Of a DNA stretch of 64,000 bases, positions 3,001 to 57,535 are shown in pieces. The translations under genes and the position numbers were made by a program. Numbering within the stretch: position 1 is the stretch's first letter; each line of letters begins with the position of its first letter. Under the pieces are notes generated by a model that searched no databases, was not told the DNA's origin, and saw only the letters and a list, made by a program, of their open reading frames with translations. The stretch is from Bolinopsis microptera (taxonomy: Eukaryota > Ctenophora > Tentaculata > Lobata > Bolinopsidae). The stretch lies in assembly GCF_026151205.1 (NCBI RefSeq), contig NC_087076.1, positions 12,943,675 through 13,007,674 of the forward strand, in the 5' to 3' direction.

Positions 3001-3150
3001 TAATGAGTACAACGAGACATTTTATGAAGGAGCACACTTCACTGTGTATTTACAATGCTCAGTATTCCATAATAGTTTCTAAGCAGATGTATGTATGTAA
3101 ACATGTGCAGTGTGCATTATGTGCATATTACAACACAATGTACATTATAA
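1..3150. other. AT-rich intergenic region, no gene seen
   Basis: I see no ORF with protein-like composition or splice-linked exons here. The contents are AT-rich sequence, a pure AT microsatellite-like block near 2660-2800, and short imperfect repeats. A segment near 2430-2450 shares a short string (gcccatataaggg) with one near 11970-11995, followed in both by a TAACGTGG or TCACGTGA box. That may mark remnants of a common dispersed repeat. Confidence 0.5.
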
Positions 3151-3160
3151 CAGGTTTGGC

Positions 3161-3579
3161 GTATTAGTGTATTGGCACGTATTGGTGTATTGGTGTATTA
3201 GTGTATTGGTGTATTGGTGTATTAGTGTATTGGTGTATTGGTGTATTGGTGTATTGTTGTATTAGTGTATTAGTGTATTGGTGTATCGGTGTATTAGTGT
3301 ATTGTTGTATTAGTGTATTAGTGTATTAGTGTATTAGTGTATTAGTGTATTGGTGTATTAGTGTATTGGTGTATTAGTGTATTGGTGTATTAGTGTATTA
3401 GTGTATTGGTGTATTAGTGTATTGGTGTATTGGTGTATTGATGTATTGGTGTATTGGTGTATTGTTGTATTGGTGTATTGGTGTATTGGTGTATTGTTGT
3501 ATTGGTGTATTGGTGTATTGGTGTATTAGTGTATTAGTGTATTGGTGTATTAGTGTATTGATGTATAAGTGTATTGGTG
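3161..3579 (+). repeat. 8-bp tandem satellite, GTATTGGT/GTATTAGT
   Basis: About 50 head-to-tail copies of an 8-bp unit (gtattggt with an A/G alternation at position 6) run through this stretch. Because 8 is not a multiple of 3, all frames in one direction cycle through the same 24-bp super-period. This produces an apparent 62-codon ORF rich in Tyr, Trp, Cys, Ile, Gly and Val. I take that ORF as an artefact. Confidence 0.95.
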
Positions 3580-4078
3580 CACCCTGGTGTACAGTATTAC
3601 ATTAGTTTATACCCCTTTATAATAACAGGTCCAGATTAAACTAAATTGTACAAAGATGCATATTGTGAAGGATCTTACCATATCGAGATTTGAAAACGGT
3701 TTGTGATTTGACATTTGTGATTTGACCGTGAGATTGTGAGCTAGTCATTGCACTGTTATGTCCATTTTACTGACAGTGGGAGAAGTATACAGAATACAGA
3801 TCTACATTTTATAGTATATAATTTGCGATTGGGGAGGCGGATTATCGTTGTGAAGTACTGTACTACTCACGAAGTGCTGTACACGATGTTTTCATCCCAC
3901 GAGCCAGAGAGCAAGCTCAACTGACGGCTCCCAAGGATGTCGTATGCACATGTGATCTGGTCAAGAATGTGGTTGGGCTGTGATTTTATCGACCATGAAT
4001 ACCAAGCATATAAGCAGATATTTGAATTGACTAGATTTCCACTGGTAAGCGATTCGGAAAATCATGGGCCGGCATAGT

Positions 4079-4146
4079 GCCGGGGCGGGTATGATCCGCC
4101 AACCTCCGAGTTACATGCCTGGTGCTCTACCAATTGAGCTACCGGC
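4079..4146 (-). tRNA. tRNA-like sequence, probably a pseudogene or SINE head
   Basis: Read on the minus strand, the segment starts GCCGGTAGCTCAATTGGTAG, which matches a tRNA acceptor 5' strand followed by a perfect A-box and D-arm. It continues with an anticodon arm whose loop reads CATGTAA (TGT, which would be Thr) and a T-arm stem GGCGG/CCGCC. The T-loop reads ATCATAC instead of a TTCGA-type loop. The anticodon stem has a mismatch, and the 3' acceptor strand pairs only partly. This looks like a decayed tRNA gene or a tRNA-derived SINE head rather than a working tRNA. Confidence 0.45.
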
Positions 4147-4699
4147 CCTATTCAGCTCAGGAATTTTGATTATGTCTACATTCTATATAATATGTTATAT
4201 AGATTATATCTATATTCTATGTTATGAATATTATATGAACCGTTAATACCAATGAAATACTCAGCTACTACATAGCAATAATACGAGTTCAGCAGCTGTG
4301 TCGTTATTACACGCTGATATAACCTTATTGTACACGTTATGTAACGGTTAAGTAGACCTTATTTGGGAATTTTATATATTCTCACCAGAACAATGTAATA
4401 TACTGGTATAAGTATATAATATATACATTGTTCTCTACCTCAGAACAACATACACAGCTTGTAAGTACTCAACAATACGGTCTAGAGATAACCATAATAT
4501 ATATGTGCGTGGTGGCCCAGCTAATCGATTCTTAAGTCGTATTTAATTGGTTGTCCCGTCTACGACGCAGTGATATTTGTATATCCAACAATAATACCCG
4601 ATCATTATGACAACAGTATCAGCACTGTCGTTGTACCGTTACAAAGTTACAATACTGTTACTGCAGTACACCGCCACTTTACTAGAACAAGAGGAGAGA

Positions 4700-4880: not shown

Positions 4881-5050
4881 TAATAATTGTTCAACGTAAG
4901 AGAGTTCAGTAAACCACAGGGAAGGGTACACTATGTTTCTACACATAGTGCACCGCCTACCTCCGCCCATTATTTAGACAATGAAGATGTACACAATTAC
5001 AAAGAGTCTTTCTTCAATGTAGTACACTTATACACCTCCTCTTACTCTGT

Positions 5051-9690: not shown

Positions 9691-9975
9691 TAAATGGAGA
9701 AACTTAATATTTTTGCCCTGCCCTCCCCGTCATGTTCTTTAAAACCAATAATTTTCCTTCGCTTCAACGTGCCAATTTTCATAATCCTCCTCAACAAGGG
9801 ACAAATTCGTGGCATGTTATAATTCTGCGACAAATTGCGGCAAATTCCACCTTCTGTCAACCTTGGCGATATCTCAGGCATATAACCCGCATCCTGCGGA
9901 GTATTATGAGGGAAAGTTTTGCGGAAAGTCGTGTTAAAATTGATGCCGTGGTGTCAGTAAAATGGTTCGGATATA

Positions 9976-11602
9976 GGGTGGCCCATAAGTGACTACCCAC
10001 ACGCAACCTCTTAATAACTCAAGTAATTCGTCTCCAAATTGCACCAAAATTTCAGAGATTATAGATATGGGTCAAACTTAGATTTCCTGAAAGTTTTGTA
10101 AGCCACGCCCAATTACAGTGGGCGTGGCGTGACACTCCCTCTTTTTCACTATTGTCTTCATAAAATGAGAACGCTTTAAGCTAAGAACTCAAAATTTTTT
10201 GCACACATTTGGCTTGATAATTGAAAACTTTTCCAAAAGTTTCAAGTTCACTGGTTAAAATATGGCTGAGTTATGACCATTTTAAAATCCATCGGATATG
10301 TGATCCGAGCACTCAGTCAGTGATATTTGCACTCAATTAGTGATCTCGTCACCCAATCTGATCAAGAGTAAGGCGTTAGCGTGTATTAATGAGGTTCATT
10401 AGGCTTTGATTGGATACCGATGATGACTTTGCTGTAAAGGAAAACACAAATTTTTAGGATAAATCAATAAATGAAATCAACTAATAAAAATTCCCACACA
10501 AAAAAAATTCAATAATTTCAATTAAGATGTTCAAATTGTCGTCCCCCAGCTGCAATCACCTTGAGGCACCGCTGTACCAGATTTAGTCCTAAAAGTAGGG
10601 ATCCACATTCTGCTTGGACAGGAATGTGTTGGCGAAATCTATCCTCGATTGGAAATCACGGTCCAAAAGTTTGTGTTTCATTGTGATTCGGTAGGCCCGG
10701 TTAGAAAGGTCTTGCTTGAGGATTCGCTGAAGGGTTGTTCTGCTGATGTCTAAGGCAGGAGCTCGTTTCCGGGTGCCAATCTTAGGTGTGTTTATCACGT
10801 CACCAACAACCATCGTGATGTCTTCCTCGCAGTTCGTCTTCTGCCGACTCTTCGCCGATCGTGTGCAGAAAACGTAAACTTGATCTTGTGATGAATGTCA
10901 AAGCAGCTTTTCCGGCAAGGGGGTGGTCGGTTGAATTTCATCTGAAATTGTCGTTTAATCTGAGGGTAGAACTCCCCATTTTCTTTCTTCAGGTAGACGA
11001 ACAATCGTTGTTCTGCAGTAAAGGGAGGATAGTGAACCATTTTCGATGATTCAATGGATGGTTCATTCCTCTTTATTGATTGTAAGGAACCTGTGACTAG
11101 CAGGGCTAACAAGCCCTGAAATGGTGACACCACCATAAATTCGTGTGATAGCGTTTTAGGTGCTGTCAGCTGTTATAAAGGCCGGCCCATAAGCAGGCTG
11201 CAACCAATCAAGCCGTGCATGTGAGCCAAACAGGCCATTAACCAAGTGACGAGATCACTGACTGAGTGCTCGGATCACGTATCCGATGAGTTTTGAAATG
11301 GTCATAACTTAGCAATATTTTAACCAATGAACTTGAAACTTTGGGAAAGGTTTTCAATTATCAAGCCAAATGTGTGCACAAAATTTTGAGTTCTTAGCTT
11401 AAAGCGTTCTCATTTTATGAAGACAATAGTGAAAAAGAGGGAGTGTCACGCCACGCCCACTGTAATTGGGCGTGGCTTACGAAACTTTCAGGAAATCTAA
11501 GTTTGACCCATATCTATAATCTCTGAAATTTTGGTGCAATTTGGAGACGAATTACGTGAGTTATTAAGAGGTTGCGTGTGGGTAGTCACTTATGGGCCAC
11601 CC
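9976..11602 (-). mobile_element. 1.6-kb Tc1/mariner-like DNA transposon with about 340-bp inverted termini
   Basis: The ends read GGGTGGCCCATAAGTGACTA at the left and its exact inverse at the right, each flanked by TA (9974-9975 and 11603-11604). Inverted similarity continues inward for about 340 bp (to about 10330 at the left, from about 11255 at the right). A TA target duplication and a minus-strand transposase-like fragment between 10589 and 11136 support a Tc1/mariner-IS630 relative. The internal region is short for a full transposase, so this copy is probably non-autonomous or decayed. Confidence 0.85.
10589..11136 (-). pseudogene. Broken transposase fragment within the 9976-11602 element
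   Basis: The minus strand first encodes a segment with FTAEQRLFVYLKKENGEFYP and a basic RRRVGRRRTARKTSR stretch, typical of a DNA-binding helix region. It then encodes, in another frame, KRAPALDISRTTLQRILKQD, a second helix-turn-helix-like block of the kind found in the N-terminal part of mariner-like transposases. The two pieces sit in different frames (a break near 10795-10813), and no DDE catalytic core is visible before the inverted terminus starts. I read it as an N-terminal transposase remnant. The family assignment is inference from these helices plus the TA target. Confidence 0.65.
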
Positions 11603-11624
11603 TATTATGTAAACATACAGGGTG

Positions 11625-19674: not shown

Positions 19675-20770
19675 ATGCTGTACATGATTAAGGATAAAAT
19701 TCCATCATCTATCCATAAGGACTTGTACCACACACTGTTTGAAAGTCACCTATCTTATGGCATTACCGTTTGGGGAGGTGCAAGTAATAATAAACTTCAA
19801 CCACTATTTGTAGCCCAGAAAAAGTGTGTTCGTATCATGTTTGGTGACAAAAAAGCATACCTTGATAAATTTATGACATGTGCTAGGACTAGACCTATCA
19901 GTGAACAGAAACTTACGAGCAAATTCTTTGAGAGAGAGCACACCAAGCCAATTTTTGCCCGTCAATCACTCATGACATTGCATAATTTATACGCGTATCA
20001 CTGCTGCAATGAACTTTTTAAAGTCTTTAAATATCGAACACCAATTGCACTATTTGAACTTTTCTGTTTGTCTAAAAGACCCGGCAAAGAAACTCTTCTT
20101 ATAACAACCATGCCCTCAAACAGTTTCGTTTACAAATCTAGTTGCCTTTGGAATTCATTCCGTCAGATGTTGGCACTGAACGACCTTGAAATCACTCATG
20201 GTGTATTCAAATCAAAGGTAAAAAAAGTCATTCTCTCGTCTGAGGGTAAAAGTGACAAGAATACCTGGGCCCCTTTGGTAAACTTTCTGAGCTCAGGCAG
20301 CTTGAACAACTAAATTTGAAAAAGTAAAACTTCTTGTCTGAATGAAATACTAGAACCTCAAGAAGCTGATCCGCATGTCTCCGCTACTAAAATGTTTAAT
20401 GACCCCAATCACTCATCACTTAACAGTTTAATCCTCAAAGTGAGTTGTACAATCTAGGTTGTTTTAAATAGCTGTTGATAGTGTAAAACAGGAGTGACTT
20501 GATCGTTTTCATAACTTCGATTTACAATCTGTACCATAATAAAACTAGCACTGCCATGGGGTTCAAAAAGGGTCATTGTAAGCCTCCAGCGTAATGGTCC
20601 TAAGTCTCTGCCCCATGCAGTGCCTGTCAGCATCAGCTAACAGAATAGCCCTAACATAACGATCAAGCCACAAATTAGGTTCTATAATGATTTAATATTG
20701 TTGAATAAAGAGATTTGAATATAATATTTGTTTTATTCTGAATATTTGTTTTATTCTGAATAATAAATTT
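19675..20770 (+). mobile_element. 5'-truncated LINE (non-LTR retrotransposon) 3' end
   Basis: An ORF at 19675-20313 (212 codons) matches the thumb and C-terminal end of LINE reverse transcriptases: FESHLSYGITVWGGAS, then VAQKKCVRIMFG, and near the end KSSCLWNSFRQM followed by a basic FKSKVKKVI tail. The catalytic palm is missing. The 3' UTR runs to about 20760 and ends in a short tandem tail (tttgttttattctgaa, two copies) after an AATAAA at 20704-20709. Such tails are typical of CR1/L2/RTE-type elements; the clade is not certain. Confidence 0.85.
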
Positions 20771-22807: not shown

Positions 22808-23575
22808 TTATACAGGGTGGGCCTCAAAAGTCTACCCATCCTTATCTCTTAAAATTGTAACAGCTCGCTGAGATCTCACTAATTATTTTATTTCAGAATG
22901 GAAAAGCGCCATAACTTACGTTCTGATTAATATTTTTGATTCAAATTTTTAGAGAATGTTAATCATGATTAGACACAACTTCGTGCTAAGTTTTGTGTGA
23001 GTCTGAGCTTGTCTGACAAAGTTAGCTCCTGAGTGTGTTAGCTTTAATTTCTCACCCAGAACTGTTTACATTGGTTAATAGAAACCACCAAAAAAAATCC
23101 TGGGTAAAAAAATTAAAAAACCACAGATTTATTTATGTTTTACCAATTCTATTCACCATGATACATCGCACATTCCATGTGAGAAGAACGATATAAACAA
23201 GCAGGAAGGATCATCTGTGATAGTCCTTATCAGTTAAAATATAGAGAGAATGGAATGTGCGATGGATCCATGTGAATAGAATTGGTAAAACGTGAATAAA
23301 TCGCTGGTTTTTTAATTTTGTTACCCAGGATTTTTTTTGGTGGTTTCTATTAACCAATGTAAACAGTTCTGGGTGAGAAATTCAAGCTAGCTCGCTCAGG
23401 GGCTAAATTGGTCAAATAAGCTCAGTGAAGCTCGCAATCACACAAAACTTGCCACAAAGGTTTAGATACTTGTTATTAACATTCTGTGAAATTTAGAAGC
23501 AAAAATATTTATCAGAACATAAGTTATGCCACTTTTTGTTTTACAAATAATTAGTGAGATCTCAGCCTCATACTG
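22808..23575. mobile_element. About 0.77-kb foldback MITE with long inverted arms
   Basis: The left arm (about 22850-23165) is the inverse of the right arm (about 23245-23575) with around 10-15 percent visible differences. Matching landmarks are gagatctcactaattatttt, ctcacccagaactgtttaca, ttggttaatagaaaccacca and aattctattcac. The left tip tacagggtgggcctcaaaag is similar to the GGGTGGCCC tips of the 9976-11602 transposon, which suggests the same or a related transposase. The right tip appears truncated because the first about 60 bp of the left arm has no partner. Confidence 0.85.
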
Positions 23576-26098: not shown

Positions 26099-26100
26099 TA

Positions 26101-27526
26101 CGGGTATCGGCCTTACAAAATGACAGGCCTCACAAAATGACAGCCCACATAGACCATGCTGTAGCTTAGGTTCCCTATACATTGAACCCTATTCCTTTTA
26201 CTGTATGAAAGAAAAAGCATTAATTAACTCTTCCCAAGGAATGATAATGACATAGAATCTATATTTCTTACATAAATATGGACGTTTTTGCTGTTCAGTC
26301 ATTGCCCCGTCAAACTGTTACCCAGAATGGAGACCAAAGTTTAGAATTTAACCCCAGAAAATAAGGTACTACCATGACTTATGTCAATCAAAGACTACTC
26401 TGCATCTGGTCAAATAAAAAAACTGTTTTAGTGACTTTGGTAGAAGAAATGACAAAAAAATGACCTAGCATCACAAAATGACAGTGTTATGCCTCACAAA
26501 ATGACAGTTTTATTTTATGATACAAAGATGGCATATTTATATTGGATGCCCCTTGCCTAATTATTGGTATTCTTAAACCCAGTAAGCTTATGATGAGCCT
26601 AAATGTGTTTGTTTGATCATAAATTTTGATTAAAATGCCTCACAAAATGACACCGAAAAGCCTTACAAAATGACAATGTTTCAGATTGAATTACTTTCAT
26701 CATCTAAAATGGATCAGAAACAGTCAATACAATAAGGAGTTAAAAATAATCATAATCTGACAGTTAACAATCAAGTAGCATTAAAAAAGTGCAGTTCTGA
26801 TATCAAAACTTTGATTTCAAACTCTATGATTTCAAACTCTGATTTCAAAACTCAACGAAATAAAGCTTCTATTTTGTGAAAGCAGAGAGTAATAACAACT
26901 CCTAAAACATGTCAAACGTTAACTAAACACTGAAAAGTGATCTGTCCAGTCATAGAAAATATCAAATATAACCAAATACTGTGTTCAAGTATGAAAACAA
27001 AAAATTATTTTTACGCCTCACAAAATGACATTTTTAAAATTTTTTCAAAGTATAAAAAATGTTCCTTTTTTAATATACTCTGGTAAAAACAGAACTGGTA
27101 TAATATAAACAACATATATATCTAACAGTAAGACACGTGAAAGAATAATGAAACTTTTTCCCAAATCGGATTTGAAGTGATGCCGTTTTGGGTTGTCATT
27201 TTGTAAGGCACTATCTCACGCGAAATTGCCCAACTTTTTTAATCTTCCTTTTTCCTGTAAAAGCTATTCTAATCTTCAATCTATTATATTTATCTAACTG
27301 TCCTAGGTGAAATCAAATTTCTATAGGATGCTGTTAAAAAATGACAGCCGTGACGAAATTGTCATTTTTTATCGCAAAATTTACGGTTTTTCAATCAAAT
27401 CAACCCCCGGGAAGAAAAATATACCTGTTGAACTACCTATCTGGATAATAAAACATGAACAAAACTCATTTTTGTGCATTTCAGAGCCATCTCCTTTTTC
27501 GTGTCATTTTGTAAGGCCGATACCCG
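26101..27526. mobile_element. 1.43-kb TA-flanked element with nine ACAAAATGACA motifs
   Basis: The termini CGGGTATCGGCCTTACAAAA (left) and its inverse at the right (ending at 27526) extend for about 25 bp to the word tgaca/tgtca. TA lies immediately outside each end (26099-26100, 27527-27528). The 11-mer ACAAAATGACA occurs exactly at 26115, 26132, 26473, 26496, 26642, 26665 and 27020 in direct orientation, and inverted at 27194 and 27502. It is usually preceded by GCCTC or GCCTT. No transposase is recognisable; the ORF at 27307-27534 runs through the right terminus and is not convincing. I infer a non-autonomous DNA transposon whose 11-mer is likely a repeated transposase-binding or host-factor site. 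Confidence 0.82.
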
Positions 27527-27673
27527 TAATCTAGTAGTATCTATAGGATTATAATATGTCTAGTTTTTCTCTTGTTTATTAAATTGGCAGTTATTTTTTT
27601 CAGCTCTAACCAATACATCATTATTAGGTTTTACATGATGTGATAGATTGATTATTTATCTCAATCATCAAGT

Positions 27674-28213
27674 ATGTCCTTACAACTGTCCAGTCGTCTC
27701 CTCCATCTATCCCTGCGTGGAATTACATGCGGGGCAACTACTAGATGGTTGAGTACGCAACCACCTACAGTTTACAAAGGACAAATCACTCCACGTATCA
27801 GAAGGACTAGAATCATTAGCTTGACATCAAGTGCTGCAACCACAATTTTTGCCCCACTGATAGCTGCTAAAAAACTACACCTAACAACAATTTGGTTTGC
27901 AGTTGCATGCGGCACACCAATGACTCTCACCTACATGTACACTGCGGTTGTGTTTTTCATGACCCGGACCTATGTCATAGAGATGTTCTTAAAGAACCCT
28001 GATACACTTGTCATCAAAAAGTATAATTTCTTTTGTAAGCAAGTGTCCCAAGAAGTTGACCCCAAGGATGTAGAAGTACCTGTTAATGTTGGGTTACTAG
28101 AATCTTTTAGGGTAAAAGGTGAGAGTTTTATGATTGATGATAACGCTATAACAGACAGGGATTTGTATGAATGTGTATCTGGTTTCAGACACAAAAAGGA
28201 ATCTGAAACTTGA
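27674..28213 (+). CDS. TMEM70: TMEM70-like mitochondrial inner membrane protein
   Basis: A single-exon gene of 179 residues. TMEM70 helps assemble ATP synthase (complex V) by incorporating the c-ring in the mitochondrial inner membrane. The N-terminal about 30 residues are rich in Arg, Ser and Leu without acids, as expected for a mitochondrial import signal. A YKGQI segment (about residues 34-38) corresponds to the family's YTG start of the conserved core. Two membrane segments follow at about 46-66 and 71-97, forming the typical hairpin. After them come TYVIEMFLKNP and a soluble C-terminal half with EVDPKDVEVP and a RDLYECVSGF block that aligns with the family's REDYIHLMGY. The protein is shorter than human TMEM70 (260), mainly at the N-terminus. 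The start at 27674 follows an in-frame stop-rich leader. It is the upstream same-strand neighbour of the STARD3-like gene, about 470 bp away. The family call rests on my recognition of the pattern, not on a search. Confidence 0.78.
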   Translation: MSLQLSSRLLHLSLRGITCGATTRWLSTQPPTVYKGQITPRIRRTRIISLTSSAATTIFAPLIAAKKLHLTTIWFAVACGTPMTLTYMYTAVVFFMTRTYVIEMFLKNPDTLVIKKYNFFCKQVSQEVDPKDVEVPVNVGLLESFRVKGESFMIDDNAITDRDLYECVSGFRHKKESET

Positions 28214-28681: not shown

Positions 28682-46243
<17,562 letters not shown>

Positions 46244-48164
46244 ATAGGTGAAATATCCCAATATGTATCGTTTATTTGGTAATAGCAGAGAAGCAGAAAC
46301 ACTTTCCCGATTGGTACGGTCTCAGGCCGCCCAAAAAACAGTAACAAGAAACGTTTTAGGCGGTCTGTTTAACTGTGTTTATCAAGTCTTAGGCGGTCTA
46401 TGCAGAAATGAAATTGCAAGCGAGAACTCTTCCAGTGACCTGTCGCTGACAGAGCAAAGATTTGATTCTCTGTGTCAGTGATTGAAGGAGGAGGAATTAG
46501 TGCCAGCGCACCATTATGGGATATCAAGAATAGAACAATACTACCATTCAATAAGCACTGCCTTCTTTTTATCAGTTGGATTTCTATTTGAACGTGATTT
46601 TTAACAGTAATCATTTTTGTACATTGTTTGTTCTCAAGATAAAAAAGATGTTTTTAGATTGGATGTAATGAAGATTTGCCGTCTTGTGTGGATTTTATAT
46701 TGTATTTTTAAAGTTCACTTTGATGTTCTTACCTATCAAATTAGGATGAGTACACTTGCACTAAATGGCCGCTTGCTTTAAATGATTGTTGAGATTGTTG
46801 TTAGCTTTTAAACAAAATATAATAACCTCCCACTTATAATTAACCCTAGTTCTGCTGTCTGCATGATATAATTGATAACGGTAAGTGATATATAAGTGTA
46901 GTAATTTAAGATTTCAGTTATGTAAATACCTTTAAGTTTTAAAGTGATAATTTCTTATGCTATTATATATTGATGCTGTGTTTTTAATGTCCGCGTATTG
47001 TTTACATTAATGTATTGGTTTTCCTTTGTTGTAATTTGCATACATTAATAATACATATTTACATATTAATGAACCTCCTTAAACTCTAACTGGAATTAAA
47101 GTTAAATAAGAAAAGTAAGAACAATTTTTCAGCAAATTCTCTTGCCTGGTAGCTGATTTTAGTAAAGTTTCATCAGGAATATCAACCACATGGTAACCTA
47201 TCTTTACTGGCACTTCACTTCTCATCGGCGTAAAATTACCCTGTCTAGTATCGATGAATCAGCATTTCGGGTGCACACTGCACTGTATCCGTGTATGAAG
47301 TATAGCATCATGCAGTCCTTTCACAACTCGATCATTTATTCATTCGATGACATGTGCATGGCAGATTGATGTGGTACATCTACGTCATATTATTGGTATA
47401 CTTGGTGGTACACTAATATTGTCGAAATTTATCGCAGGTACATACCGCCAAAATTTGGGCGGGCCAATTAAATAAGATGCGCTTATGAGGAAATCCCGCC
47501 TGCGCGCGCAATAAACGTGCTTCTTCCTGTACGGACTGTAGAAACCTTTTCTTTTTAAAATTATGTTTGGATACTGCGCGTTCCATGTTGGGCGCATTGC
47601 AGCGTCATTCGGTACCGGATTCAAATTGGGCGCCACAAGATATCCTCACTTGAGATCACCCTAAAGGCCATCAATCATCAACACTAAATGAGACTGAGCT
47701 CGACGGTTCATATTTTGTACCAATCTAATGTAATTTGGTGAACAAGGAAAATGGTTGACTTTTAGACTGACGGGATAATGATGTTCTCATGCTTATTATG
47801 ACAGCATGTTACAATCTAATGCTACATATATCCTCTATCCACTAACCATAAGAATTAAAACAACATTTAGAGCCCCTGACTTCACTAATCCAACTGTAAT
47901 GCTGATTAGTCATCCCTATAAATACGCCATGTTCGATAATCCTTGGCTGCACCAGATAACCCTGTTGCAATCATTACACCTGTCACCTGTGTACAACGGT
48001 CTACAACATATGGTTTTAAATTTAAGTTAAAATCCAACTTCCTTCCATGTCAGATGCAAGTGTTGAGTTTACGGAACATTATTCAAGTAGTAACCTAAAC
48101 TTTACTTAGTAAAGATAACCCTTTAAACAGACGTGTTAAGATCAAACCTAGGAGGATTGTCGAC
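46244..48164. other. 3' flank of the STARD3-like gene and intergenic sequence
   Basis: I see no further gene. The ORFs at 46248-46481 and 47806-48030 have no motif. A GC-rich patch at 47440-47640 has short palindromic pieces but no clear element boundaries. Confidence 0.45.
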
Positions 48165-48529
48165 GATTTATCACGTGACTACAAAATGAGACCTAAAGAT
48201 TTATCACGTGACTAGAAAATGAGACCTAAAGATATATCATGTGACTAGAAAATGAGACCTAAAGATATATCATGTGACTAGAAAATGAGACCTAAAGATA
48301 TATCACGTGACCAGAAAATGAGACCTAAAGATTTATCACGTGACTAGAAAATGAGACCTAAAGATTTATCACGTGACTAGAAAATGAGACCTAAAGATAT
48401 ATCATGTGACTAGAAAATGAGACCTAAAGATATATCATGTGACTAGAAAATGAGACCTAAAGATATATCACGTGACCAGAAAATGAGACCTAAAGATATA
48501 TCACGTGACTAGAAAATGAGACCTAAAGT
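48165..48529 (+). repeat. 33-bp minisatellite carrying CACGTG, 11 copies
   Basis: Unit: gacctaaagatttatcacgt then gactagaaaatga. Copies vary mainly in the hexamer (CACGTG or CATGTG), in tttat versus tatat, and in gactag versus gaccag. The variants are ordered so that a block of several units appears to have been duplicated. It is intergenic. Confidence 0.93.
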
Positions 48530-48660
48530 CCCCACCTGTACAACTCTCGACCCAGTGTACCCAGACAAATTGTTTGTGAACACTTAGTAAACACTTGTTG
48601 AGTCATACTGTACATGCATGGTAAGTGACCTGTGTGCGTTTGAAACCCTAGTCAGCCAGT

Positions 48661-54321: not shown

Positions 54322-55690
54322 CATCGCCCGAAATAATTAAAAAGAGGAGGACACTTAATGCCATTGCGGTAGTTTCCCTCAAAACACAAAAGCTTCTACA
54401 CTATACTTTACTTTGGCTTACTAGTCGCTAAAAAAAATCGACCTGGAGTGACAACTGCCTGGAGTGACAACTGCCAGTTAAGTTGGCTGGACGACTTAGC
54501 CCAGTTTAATTTGTAGGTTTATAACCTACCAGGATGCGCGCCGAGTATCACCCGTTAAAGTTTATTAATCGTCGCGTGGTGAACAGCTGAACTAATTGCA
54601 TTGTGCCCATAAAACGTGATCGTTTAAAGCTAAATATTGGGTCATTTGTCATTGTCCATTTTTAATGAACTAATCCAACGCGTGCTATTTCATAGCACTT
54701 ACTACCTCAATTAGAAGAAACAAAAAAGCGTGCGCGCTACTTCGAAGAAATTTAAACAAGTATTAGTGAAAAAAATTTTAGTACTGAAACAAATTTAAAA
54801 TTTTATCCTTTATTTTACAATCATAATTAATATCATAATATTTATAAGCCTCCGTTTTGAAAGTTTTAAATTTTAATATTTCACATTTCTATTTAAAATT
54901 CAATTTTATGTATAAGTCAATAACTGGCATGGCCGCCAAAGCCGCGCATTCTTGAAAACAGGATTAACTTGTTTATACTTATACGACAACGTAAATTTAA
55001 AACTATCCGTGGTTTTTAAAAAATAAATAAATTATAATTTTACCTAAGTCCAAAGCCAGCTTTGTAAAATTTATTATTAAATCATCATATATCGTCAACT
55101 TTAAATATTTACAATGCACAAATGCACAATGCAACAGTTCATTAATCTGTAAACACGCGTACTCCAGCCCTTACATACACGCATCAATTGTTATGCGGCG
55201 CGTTGCTCTAACCAGAGCCCTCTCGCTTGCAGTAGCGCGCGACCGCCGAAGGCTTGTGAAACAAGCGCGTCACGCAGTACGCGTAGGCACATGGCTATGT
55301 GAATGCGGCGCGGCTCAAGCTCCGCGCACGCACATATTACTTTATACTGTTTGCTTTCTAATAAATATCGTGTCAATGTGTACTACGTCTAAATTGTAAA
55401 CGTTTATGTTTTGTGTAAAGTGAATCCAATTGAGATTATTGACAAGGATAAGGACCCAAGTGCCTGTACGGCTTTTTCGGACCCCTGCGGACTACTACTA
55501 GCTCTCAACTTGGGTCAATGACCAAAGCAAATATATATAAATTATAATGATTACAGCTTAATGGTCAGTTGTCACCAATTTTTAGTTTATTAACCTAAAT
55601 AAAACATGCTATACGTTAATTCAATAAAGGAAAACATAATATTGCGCGGCGCGCGGCACATCGAAGTGGCGACGTTCTTGATTATAAAGT
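54322..55690. other. GC-rich foldback region related to 24.1-24.9 kb
   Basis: No gene. The left side has tgcgcgccgag and gcgtgcgcgctacttcgaag, the latter matching the inverse of cttcgaagtagcgcgcgccg at 24319-24338. The segment at 55198-55310 repeats the 24426 element's tip (tgctctaaccagagccctct, then cgcttgcagtagcgcgcgac) and its inner catggctatgtgaa. I read it as a rearranged relative of that element. Confidence 0.65.
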
Positions 55691-56200
55691 AAAGTAAAGT
55701 AAAGTAAAAATTATGACATAACATCATCACTAATGTCTACAAAGTATCATCACACTACATGGAAAAATAATTATCCCTCCATCAAATTTAAAAGTAATAA
55801 TTTGTCAAATATTAATCATGAATAAAAACGACATTACAAAATTTAATTTATTTATACTTCCCAGTGGAGTGAAGATTTATAAAACGTTTCTTTGCTACAT
55901 AAGGATGAAACCACAGATAATCATTGTGTTTTTCCTTATAACTGATATAACTGGTACCTTCAATTCTTGTTAAAACTTCTTTCGAAACATTCCAAAAATG
56001 AAAGTCATTTACAATACATTTAGAAATCATATTCTTTTTATAACTTTCCAATCCAATTTTAAAACTCAAAACTGTCAAGCAGTTCTTCACCTCCGAAGGG
56101 AGTTTGTTCCATTAAGGAACAACCCGCTCTGGAAGAAAAGAACACTGAAGATTCTTGACCTTTGTCACACTCTTGCTACATCTATTGGATGAAACCAGAT
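55687..56200 (-). mobile_element. LINE 3' end, copy A, with (TTTAC)n-type tail
   Basis: On the minus strand this encodes the extreme C-terminus of a LINE protein: LTVLSFKIGLESYKKNMISK then VNDFHFWNVSKEVLTRIEGT, ending at about 55848. Its 3' UTR ends in a run of ttttactttac-like repeats (55687-55708 on the plus strand, aaagtaaagtaaagtaaagt). The upstream WNKLP block found in copy B is broken here by a changed frame. The stretch matches copy B at 57005-57530 over about 510 bp with few differences. Confidence 0.85.
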
Positions 56201-57004: not shown

Positions 57005-57535
57005 TAAAAGTAAAAGTAAAGTAAAAATTATGACATAACATCATCACTAATGTCTACAAAGTATCATCACACTACATGGAAAAATAACTATTTCTCCATC
57101 AAATTTAAAGGTAACAATTTATCAAATATCAATCATGAATAAAAACAACATTACAAAATTTAATTTATTCATACTTCCCAGTGGAGTAAAGATTTATAAA
57201 ACGTTTCTTTGCTACATAAGGATGGAACCACAGATAATCGTTGTGTTTTTCCTTATTACTGATATAACTGGTACCTTCAATTCTTGTTAAAACTTCTTTC
57301 GAAACATTCCAAAAATGAAAGTCATTTACAATACATTTAGAAATCATTTTCTTTTTAAAACTTTCCAATCCAATTTTAAAACTCAAAACTGTCAAGCAGT
57401 TCTTCACCTCCGAAGGGAGTTTGTTCCAATAAGGAACAACCCGCTCTGGAAGAAAAGAACACTGAAGATTCTTGACCTTTGTCACACTCTTACTACATCT
57501 ATTGGATGAAACCAGATTAAGACCTGATCTGCTTG
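57005..57535 (-). mobile_element. LINE 3' end, copy B
   Basis: Near-identical to copy A. The ORF at 57165-57485 is longer and reads SFLPERVVPYWNKLPSEVKN then CLTVLSFKIGLESFKKKMIS, the standard end of a CR1/jockey-like RT protein. The right breakpoint lies near 57530 (gacctgatctgcttg versus gacctgatctgattg in copy A). It is 5' truncated. Flanking DNA at 56926-56983 and 57556-57606 is inverted relative to itself (see findings). Confidence 0.88.

Follow-up and report, generated by a model that had tools for sequence, protein, structure and literature searches.

What is the 1,426-bp unit at positions 26101-27526 (forward strand) of the window, the 64,000-nucleotide stretch of Bolinopsis microptera DNA analyzed here, and what are the short repeats inside it for? 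The unit is bounded by 25-bp inverted repeats, the terminus CGGGTATCGGCCTTACAAAATGACA at 26101-26125 (+) and its inverted copy at 27502-27526 (−), and a TA lies directly outside each end (26099-26100 and 27527-27528), as the original prediction had claimed from the sequence alone. That prediction also described nine exact copies of the 11-mer ACAAAATGACA, seven direct and two inverted. All nine are present, within 26115-27512, compared to a mean of 0.11 and a maximum of 2 in 100 dinucleotide shuffles of the whole window. While the 11-mer copies were borne out, the true repeated unit is longer, a 16-bp box, GCCTYACAAAATGACA, with the 11-mer at its core. The bases flanking the box on either side vary from box to box.

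The consensus of the fetched copies of this element (see below) contains ten boxes, one in each terminus and eight internal, divided six to four between the two arms and spread over ∼560 bp of each. In the window copy, box 1 (26110-26125) lies inside the left terminus and is followed on the same strand by box 2 (26127-26142), box 3 (26468-26483), box 4 (26491-26506), box 5 (26637-26652), box 6 (26660-26675) and box 7 (27015-27030). Box 8 (27194-27209), the remnant of box 9 (27360-27375) and box 10 (27502-27517, inside the right terminus) are on the opposite strand. Eight of these are exact, box 3 has one mismatch, and box 9 has three mismatches where it is cut by the loss of consensus bases 1261-1301 (41 bp), a deletion private to the window copy's row of the alignment. 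The left terminus consists of nine outer bases, CGGGTATCG, and one box; CGGGTATCG is found at the ends only and is missing from the internal boxes. A 179-aa frame (27674-28213, +) with TMEM70-family relatives, 5 out of 5 of which contain PF06979, starts 148 bp beyond the element, placing the insertion promoter-proximal to a likely gene.

We searched the 264.65-Mb assembly (232 contigs) with the 25-bp terminus and found it, with at most three mismatches, at 145 places (69 on one strand, 76 on the other; 0 for the reversed-pattern control), so the termini are not unique to this locus. A 40-mer taken from the left end is present 70 times in the genome. Among the 40 BLAST rows scored out of 150 candidates, 36 span at least 1,422 of the 1,426 bases, with 93-95% identity excluding the window copy itself. 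Copies were fetched from most of the best 100 of the 145 terminus places; 17 loci, some of them partial stretches, yielded no end pair and were left out. TA is present on both sides of 59 of the 63 called end pairs, and the remaining four are mis-pairings in which an internal box, with six or seven mismatches, was taken for one of the ends. Both 25-bp ends are exact in 52/63 pairs. Most copies are non-coding and ∼1.46 kb long (29 of the 55 short copies measure 1461-1464 bp), and their divergence from the consensus is low (median 0.96%, range 0.27-3.45%; 1.2% between the window copy and the 51-copy consensus), suggesting that the spread was fairly recent.

Two paralogous uninterrupted sites were identified. 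The joined flanks of copy L024 align unbroken across the junction to window positions 54782-55202 (+; 373/425 columns identical), an uninterrupted and diverged paralogue of the repeat that L024 entered, with AA at the junction, and the joined flanks of L033 match L012 at 4923-5000 (78/82 columns) with a single TA at the junction. Together with the repeated left ends and the TA-flanked end pairs, these sites uphold the original description of a transposon-like unit: the genome contains a family of DNA transposons, and window 26101-27526 holds one of its copies. The window contains other repeats. Inverted arms of 370 bp, 95% complementary and 893 bp apart (9973-10342 and 11236-11605), are possibly another inverted-repeat element; there is a long hairpin at 23003-23425 (176-bp arms, 90% complementary, 71 bp apart), and direct 300-bp copies at 55696-55995 and 57013-57312 are 96% alike and 1317 bp apart. 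Tandem arrays occupy 3067-3500 (8-bp unit), 43897-44472 (32 bp) and 48099-48593 (33 bp), and ARAGORN places a tRNA-Thr (TGT) at 4075-4149 (−).

The exact box GCCTYACAAAATGACA occurs 686 times in the genome and its reversed control 0 times, showing that the repeated site is not generic, and all ten boxes are exact in 36 of 51 copies. These 51 are the 55 short copies minus L095 (badly diverged or misaligned) and L011, L083 and L093 (mis-paired, internal box). We divided substitutions into private (in one copy) and shared (in two or more copies); being found in several copies, a shared substitution was mostly already present in a copy that later multiplied. Against a null of 50,000 draws of random sets of eight 16-mers from the same element, the eight internal boxes (128 bp) carry 2 shared substitutions where 50.3 are expected (P = 8e-5), at 1 shared site compared to 11.9 expected (P = 1.2e-4), and 16 private substitutions compared to 27.5 expected (P = 0.02). 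For a first set of 41 copies, the numbers were 2 shared vs 37.5 expected and 13 private vs 19.5 without correction for base type, and 2 vs 42 and 13 vs 21 with it. In the 42 youngest copies there are 2 shared substitutions vs 28 expected (P = 0.007), at 1 site vs 6.7 expected (permutation P = 0.0098). All 55 copies give 8 shared substitutions in boxes vs 65 expected (P = 1e-4) and 63 private vs 69. The contrast is weaker in a Fisher test of shared against private sites, with P = 0.029 over the 51 copies and P = 0.13 over the 42 youngest. Private substitutions, expected to be neutral, are also low in the boxes, so the contrast is not fully clean, and part of the deficit may reflect low mutability or unsampled older branches.

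The near-absence of shared substitutions suggests that the boxes are needed for mobility. Copies with damaged internal boxes were, on the natural reading of these counts, less often mobilized, and the boxes are most likely candidate transposase sites. The original prediction had guessed at a transposase-binding or host-factor motif. Its repeated functional site fits the substitution pattern, with the transposase as the candidate binding protein.

The original prediction had also pointed to a full-length relative with the same ends and a transposase, and such a relative was found. Copy L018 has exact ends on both sides and carries a coding insert with a DDE transposase at consensus position ∼667/671; L059 carries the same insert at the same point and retains the right end. 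L018 is 5667 bp long including a nested SINE of ∼368 bp, or ∼5.3 kb without it. Its arms match those of the short copies, at 95-97% identity to one of them, a level that places L018 on an older branch. Compared to the consensus, L018 differs at 1 of 128 box positions (∼4 expected) and at 40 of 1254 positions elsewhere, a contrast that is weak alone. With their ends, their duplication, their similar size and their lack of coding sequence, the window-type copies have the features of a non-autonomous derivative of an autonomous partner. MITEs are usually a few hundred bp long; at ∼1.46 kb these copies exceed that length, and we therefore use the term non-autonomous derivative. The transposase gene runs from the four-box arm toward the six-box arm, so that the four-box arm is upstream of its start.

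Not all long copies are autonomous. L009 and L014 contain reverse transcriptase genes, L010 is simple repeat, and L013 and L017 contain small nested elements at consensus 669-678. A frame at window 19675-20313 (+) resembles, by eye, the C-terminal part of the L009 reverse transcriptase frame and is a retroelement fragment. L013, L017 and L018 are all interrupted within ∼12 bp of one another (consensus about 667-678), by nested elements in the first two and by the coding insert in L018, which is either chance or an insertion hot spot. The SINE in L018 looks tRNA-derived and lies at about 3011-3378, within a predicted intron of the transposase gene; near-identical copies of it (98-100%) make up most of 42 search rows, indicating a young and abundant SINE. 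Beside the transposase is a small frame with RanBP2-like zinc-finger spacing (L018 986-1321, −; L059 2768-2983, −, where it is shorter). It scored 16.8 bits in Pfam, under the cut-off of 27, and could represent either an additional gene of the element or captured sequence.

With so many nested sequences among the long copies, the transposase gene of L018 and L059 could itself be a foreign transposon that landed inside an old copy, the true partner being another element; the older-branch arms of L018 are compatible with this. The edges of the insert have no inverted repeat and no duplication of their own, however, and the same insert occupies the same point at two unlinked loci. A DNA search of the genome identified two coding copies, one with a broken reading frame, and no third copy outside such arms. 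The TA duplication of the family is moreover typical of this transposase class. We therefore regard a foreign origin of the gene as very unlikely. An intron-like artefact was also rejected: the insert edges read GT...AG, but the spliced sequence is absent from the short copies.

The predicted spliced transposase of L018 is a pogo-like DDE protein of 837 aa. Metagenome proteins of ∼840 aa share ∼45% identity over its full length, and P0003 aligns with the spliced model end to end (46.6% over 827 columns). DDE_1 is matched by exon 1 of L018 (26.3 bits, cut-off 22) and in 16 of 23 alignment members. D236, D353 and D390 are invariant across the 23 sequences, and the last two aspartates are spaced by 36 residues in L018 and 35 in the other 22. 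The predicted structure, of moderate confidence (mean pLDDT 79.1, pTM 0.53), has the Mos1, SETMAR and Sleeping Beauty transposases as its top matches, pointing to an RNase H-like catalytic fold of Tc1/mariner type like that of Mos1. The N terminus is helical in the model, and the long C-terminal part is cysteine-rich. None of the 23 transposases matched the Pfam DNA-binding models (HTH_psq, HTH_Tnp_Tc5, CENP-B_N and others) at E 0.01; a distant relative, P0042, has PF05225 and PF03221 together with DDE_1. Searching solved structures by sequence with exon 1 returned three weak rows, all of them ribonuclease P proteins (best E 0.31), judged to be chance. Searches with the transposase alignment gave 28 pattern stretches in viral contigs, with no relative by tblastn, and 19 in genome contigs, also with no relative.

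The original prediction took the copies to be spaced irregularly. Instead, the clusters of boxes sit near multiples of ∼177 bp: successive clusters are 355, 169, 366.5, 179, 167 and 183 bp apart, values that approximate multiples of 177.5. With the period free between 100 and 300 bp, 1e-4 of 20,000 random layouts equal the observed fit (Rayleigh R = 0.988), and the arms fitted separately give periods of 174 to 175.5 bp (P = 0.0009 and 0.0013, free period). All of these spacing tests are post hoc and use seven clusters picked by eye. Phasing through the whole long element was rejected, as the inter-arm box gap of L018, 4565 bp, is not a multiple of 177 once the SINE is subtracted. Such spacing would be left behind if the boxes were the functionless relic of an old satellite-like tandem repeat, and the paired boxes at 362/385 and 531/554 do have a common 39-bp match (84.6%). 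We find this hardly credible, since there is no self-similarity outside the boxes at lags 160-190 (maximum 0.308; mean 0.288, sd 0.015) and the depletion of shared substitutions in the boxes weakens a functionless reading.

The same spacing suggests a chromatin role and bears on a second alternative, that the protein bound at the boxes comes from the host, as a transcription factor or architectural protein, and that the element keeps the boxes for expression or chromatin reasons. The right-arm boxes are indeed upstream of the transposase start in L018. The six boxes of the left arm, however, are located distally, at the 3′ end of the transposase gene, the short copies that retain ten exact boxes (36/51) have no gene to express, and 16 of the 25 bases in each terminus, the place at which the transposase has to act, belong to a box. 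A host protein as the reason for the boxes is thus improbable. A role in chromatin could also belong to the transposase itself. The element would then amount to a mobile array in which transposase boxes recur about once per nucleosome repeat (∼177 bp), the transposase loading at linkers or setting nucleosome phase in both arms, an idea that we consider doubtful and put forward tentatively. CENP-B is a pogo-derived protein with a two-part DNA-binding domain that recognizes a 17-bp box, and its boxes in alpha satellite are about a nucleosome repeat apart. It is a domesticated centromere protein acting on tandem satellite, whereas the boxes described here belong to a mobile element, with non-repeated sequence separating them.

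The reading that we prefer, and that is very probably correct, is that the window element is an internally deleted, non-autonomous cut-and-paste transposon of the pogo kind, on which the transposase of the long form acts in trans via the 16-bp box. A two-part N-terminal DNA-binding region of the transposase would recognize GCCTYACAAAATGACA in both terminal and internal positions, and the nine outer bases CGGGTATCG would mark the place of cutting, a division into binding site and cutting site proposed by analogy with Tc1/mariner ends. The six and four boxes would load several transposase molecules and help pair the two ends, and a copy seems to have fewer descendants once it has lost a box. Because the four-box arm precedes the transposase start, binding there may also control expression of the gene.

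Among known systems, the pogo superfamily (Passer, Tigger, Fot, Lemi, Mover and others) is like this element in DDE_1, the TA duplication and short inverted ends. In the available text of PMC7386202, pogo elements are 1.2-5.2 kb long, encode transposases of 300-977 residues, are flanked by TA, TAA or TAAA duplications and have inverted ends that mostly do not exceed 40 bp, and Mover also has no detectable DNA-binding motif. By that account the DDxD aspartate triad and its spacing are within the pogo-family range, as are a transposase of several hundred residues and 25-bp ends; L018, at ∼5.3 kb minus the SINE, is slightly over the surveyed length, which is not a definition. The differences are the long cysteine-rich C-terminal part, a DNA-binding region that Pfam does not detect, and the ten-box array. 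The word "subterminal" is absent from the main text of the pogo surveys PMC7386202 and PMC7325037, and it appears in the available text of the Passer paper (PMC9976928) once, in the reference list. Publications were searched for the 16-mer, the 11-mer and the first 12 bases of the terminus; among the matches listed, only the 11-mer was found, in none that by its title concerns this transposon.

Repeated internal sites are already known in other superfamilies. As far as PMC8151067 was available, the IR/DR ends of Sleeping Beauty hold extra transposase sites, inner and outer repeats within ∼230-bp inverted repeats. The element shares with them the TA duplication and extra inner sites, putative here, but has six and four boxes, unequal between the arms, over ∼560 bp per arm and an inverted repeat of only 25 bp, and so departs from IR/DR, in which long inverted repeats hold two transposase sites at each end. 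Repeated short subterminal sites in Tol2 (PMC8151067) and in Galileo/Foldback-like elements (for Galileo, PMC3688188) are thought or were shown to be bound by transposase, going by the portions of these papers available. Tol2 and Galileo belong to the hAT and P superfamilies, with other transposases and other duplications, and the sites of Galileo are in long inverted repeats. Against the pogo elements covered in the accessible survey text, the ten-box array is different.

The family amounts to an experiment run by nature on the internal sequences that a pogo-type transposon requires, in which inherited and non-inherited mutations can be compared in ten identical sites. If the transposase binds the boxes, the family would be a case for the study of multi-site end assembly in the pogo superfamily. 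The near-177-bp layout opens the link between transposase binding and chromatin to direct testing. If the boxes do form an array of nucleosome length, it would be a free-living parallel to the CENP-B boxes of satellite DNA, and would suggest that the phasing of boxes at nucleosome length is an ancient trait of pogo-type DNA binding that did not originate at centromeres.
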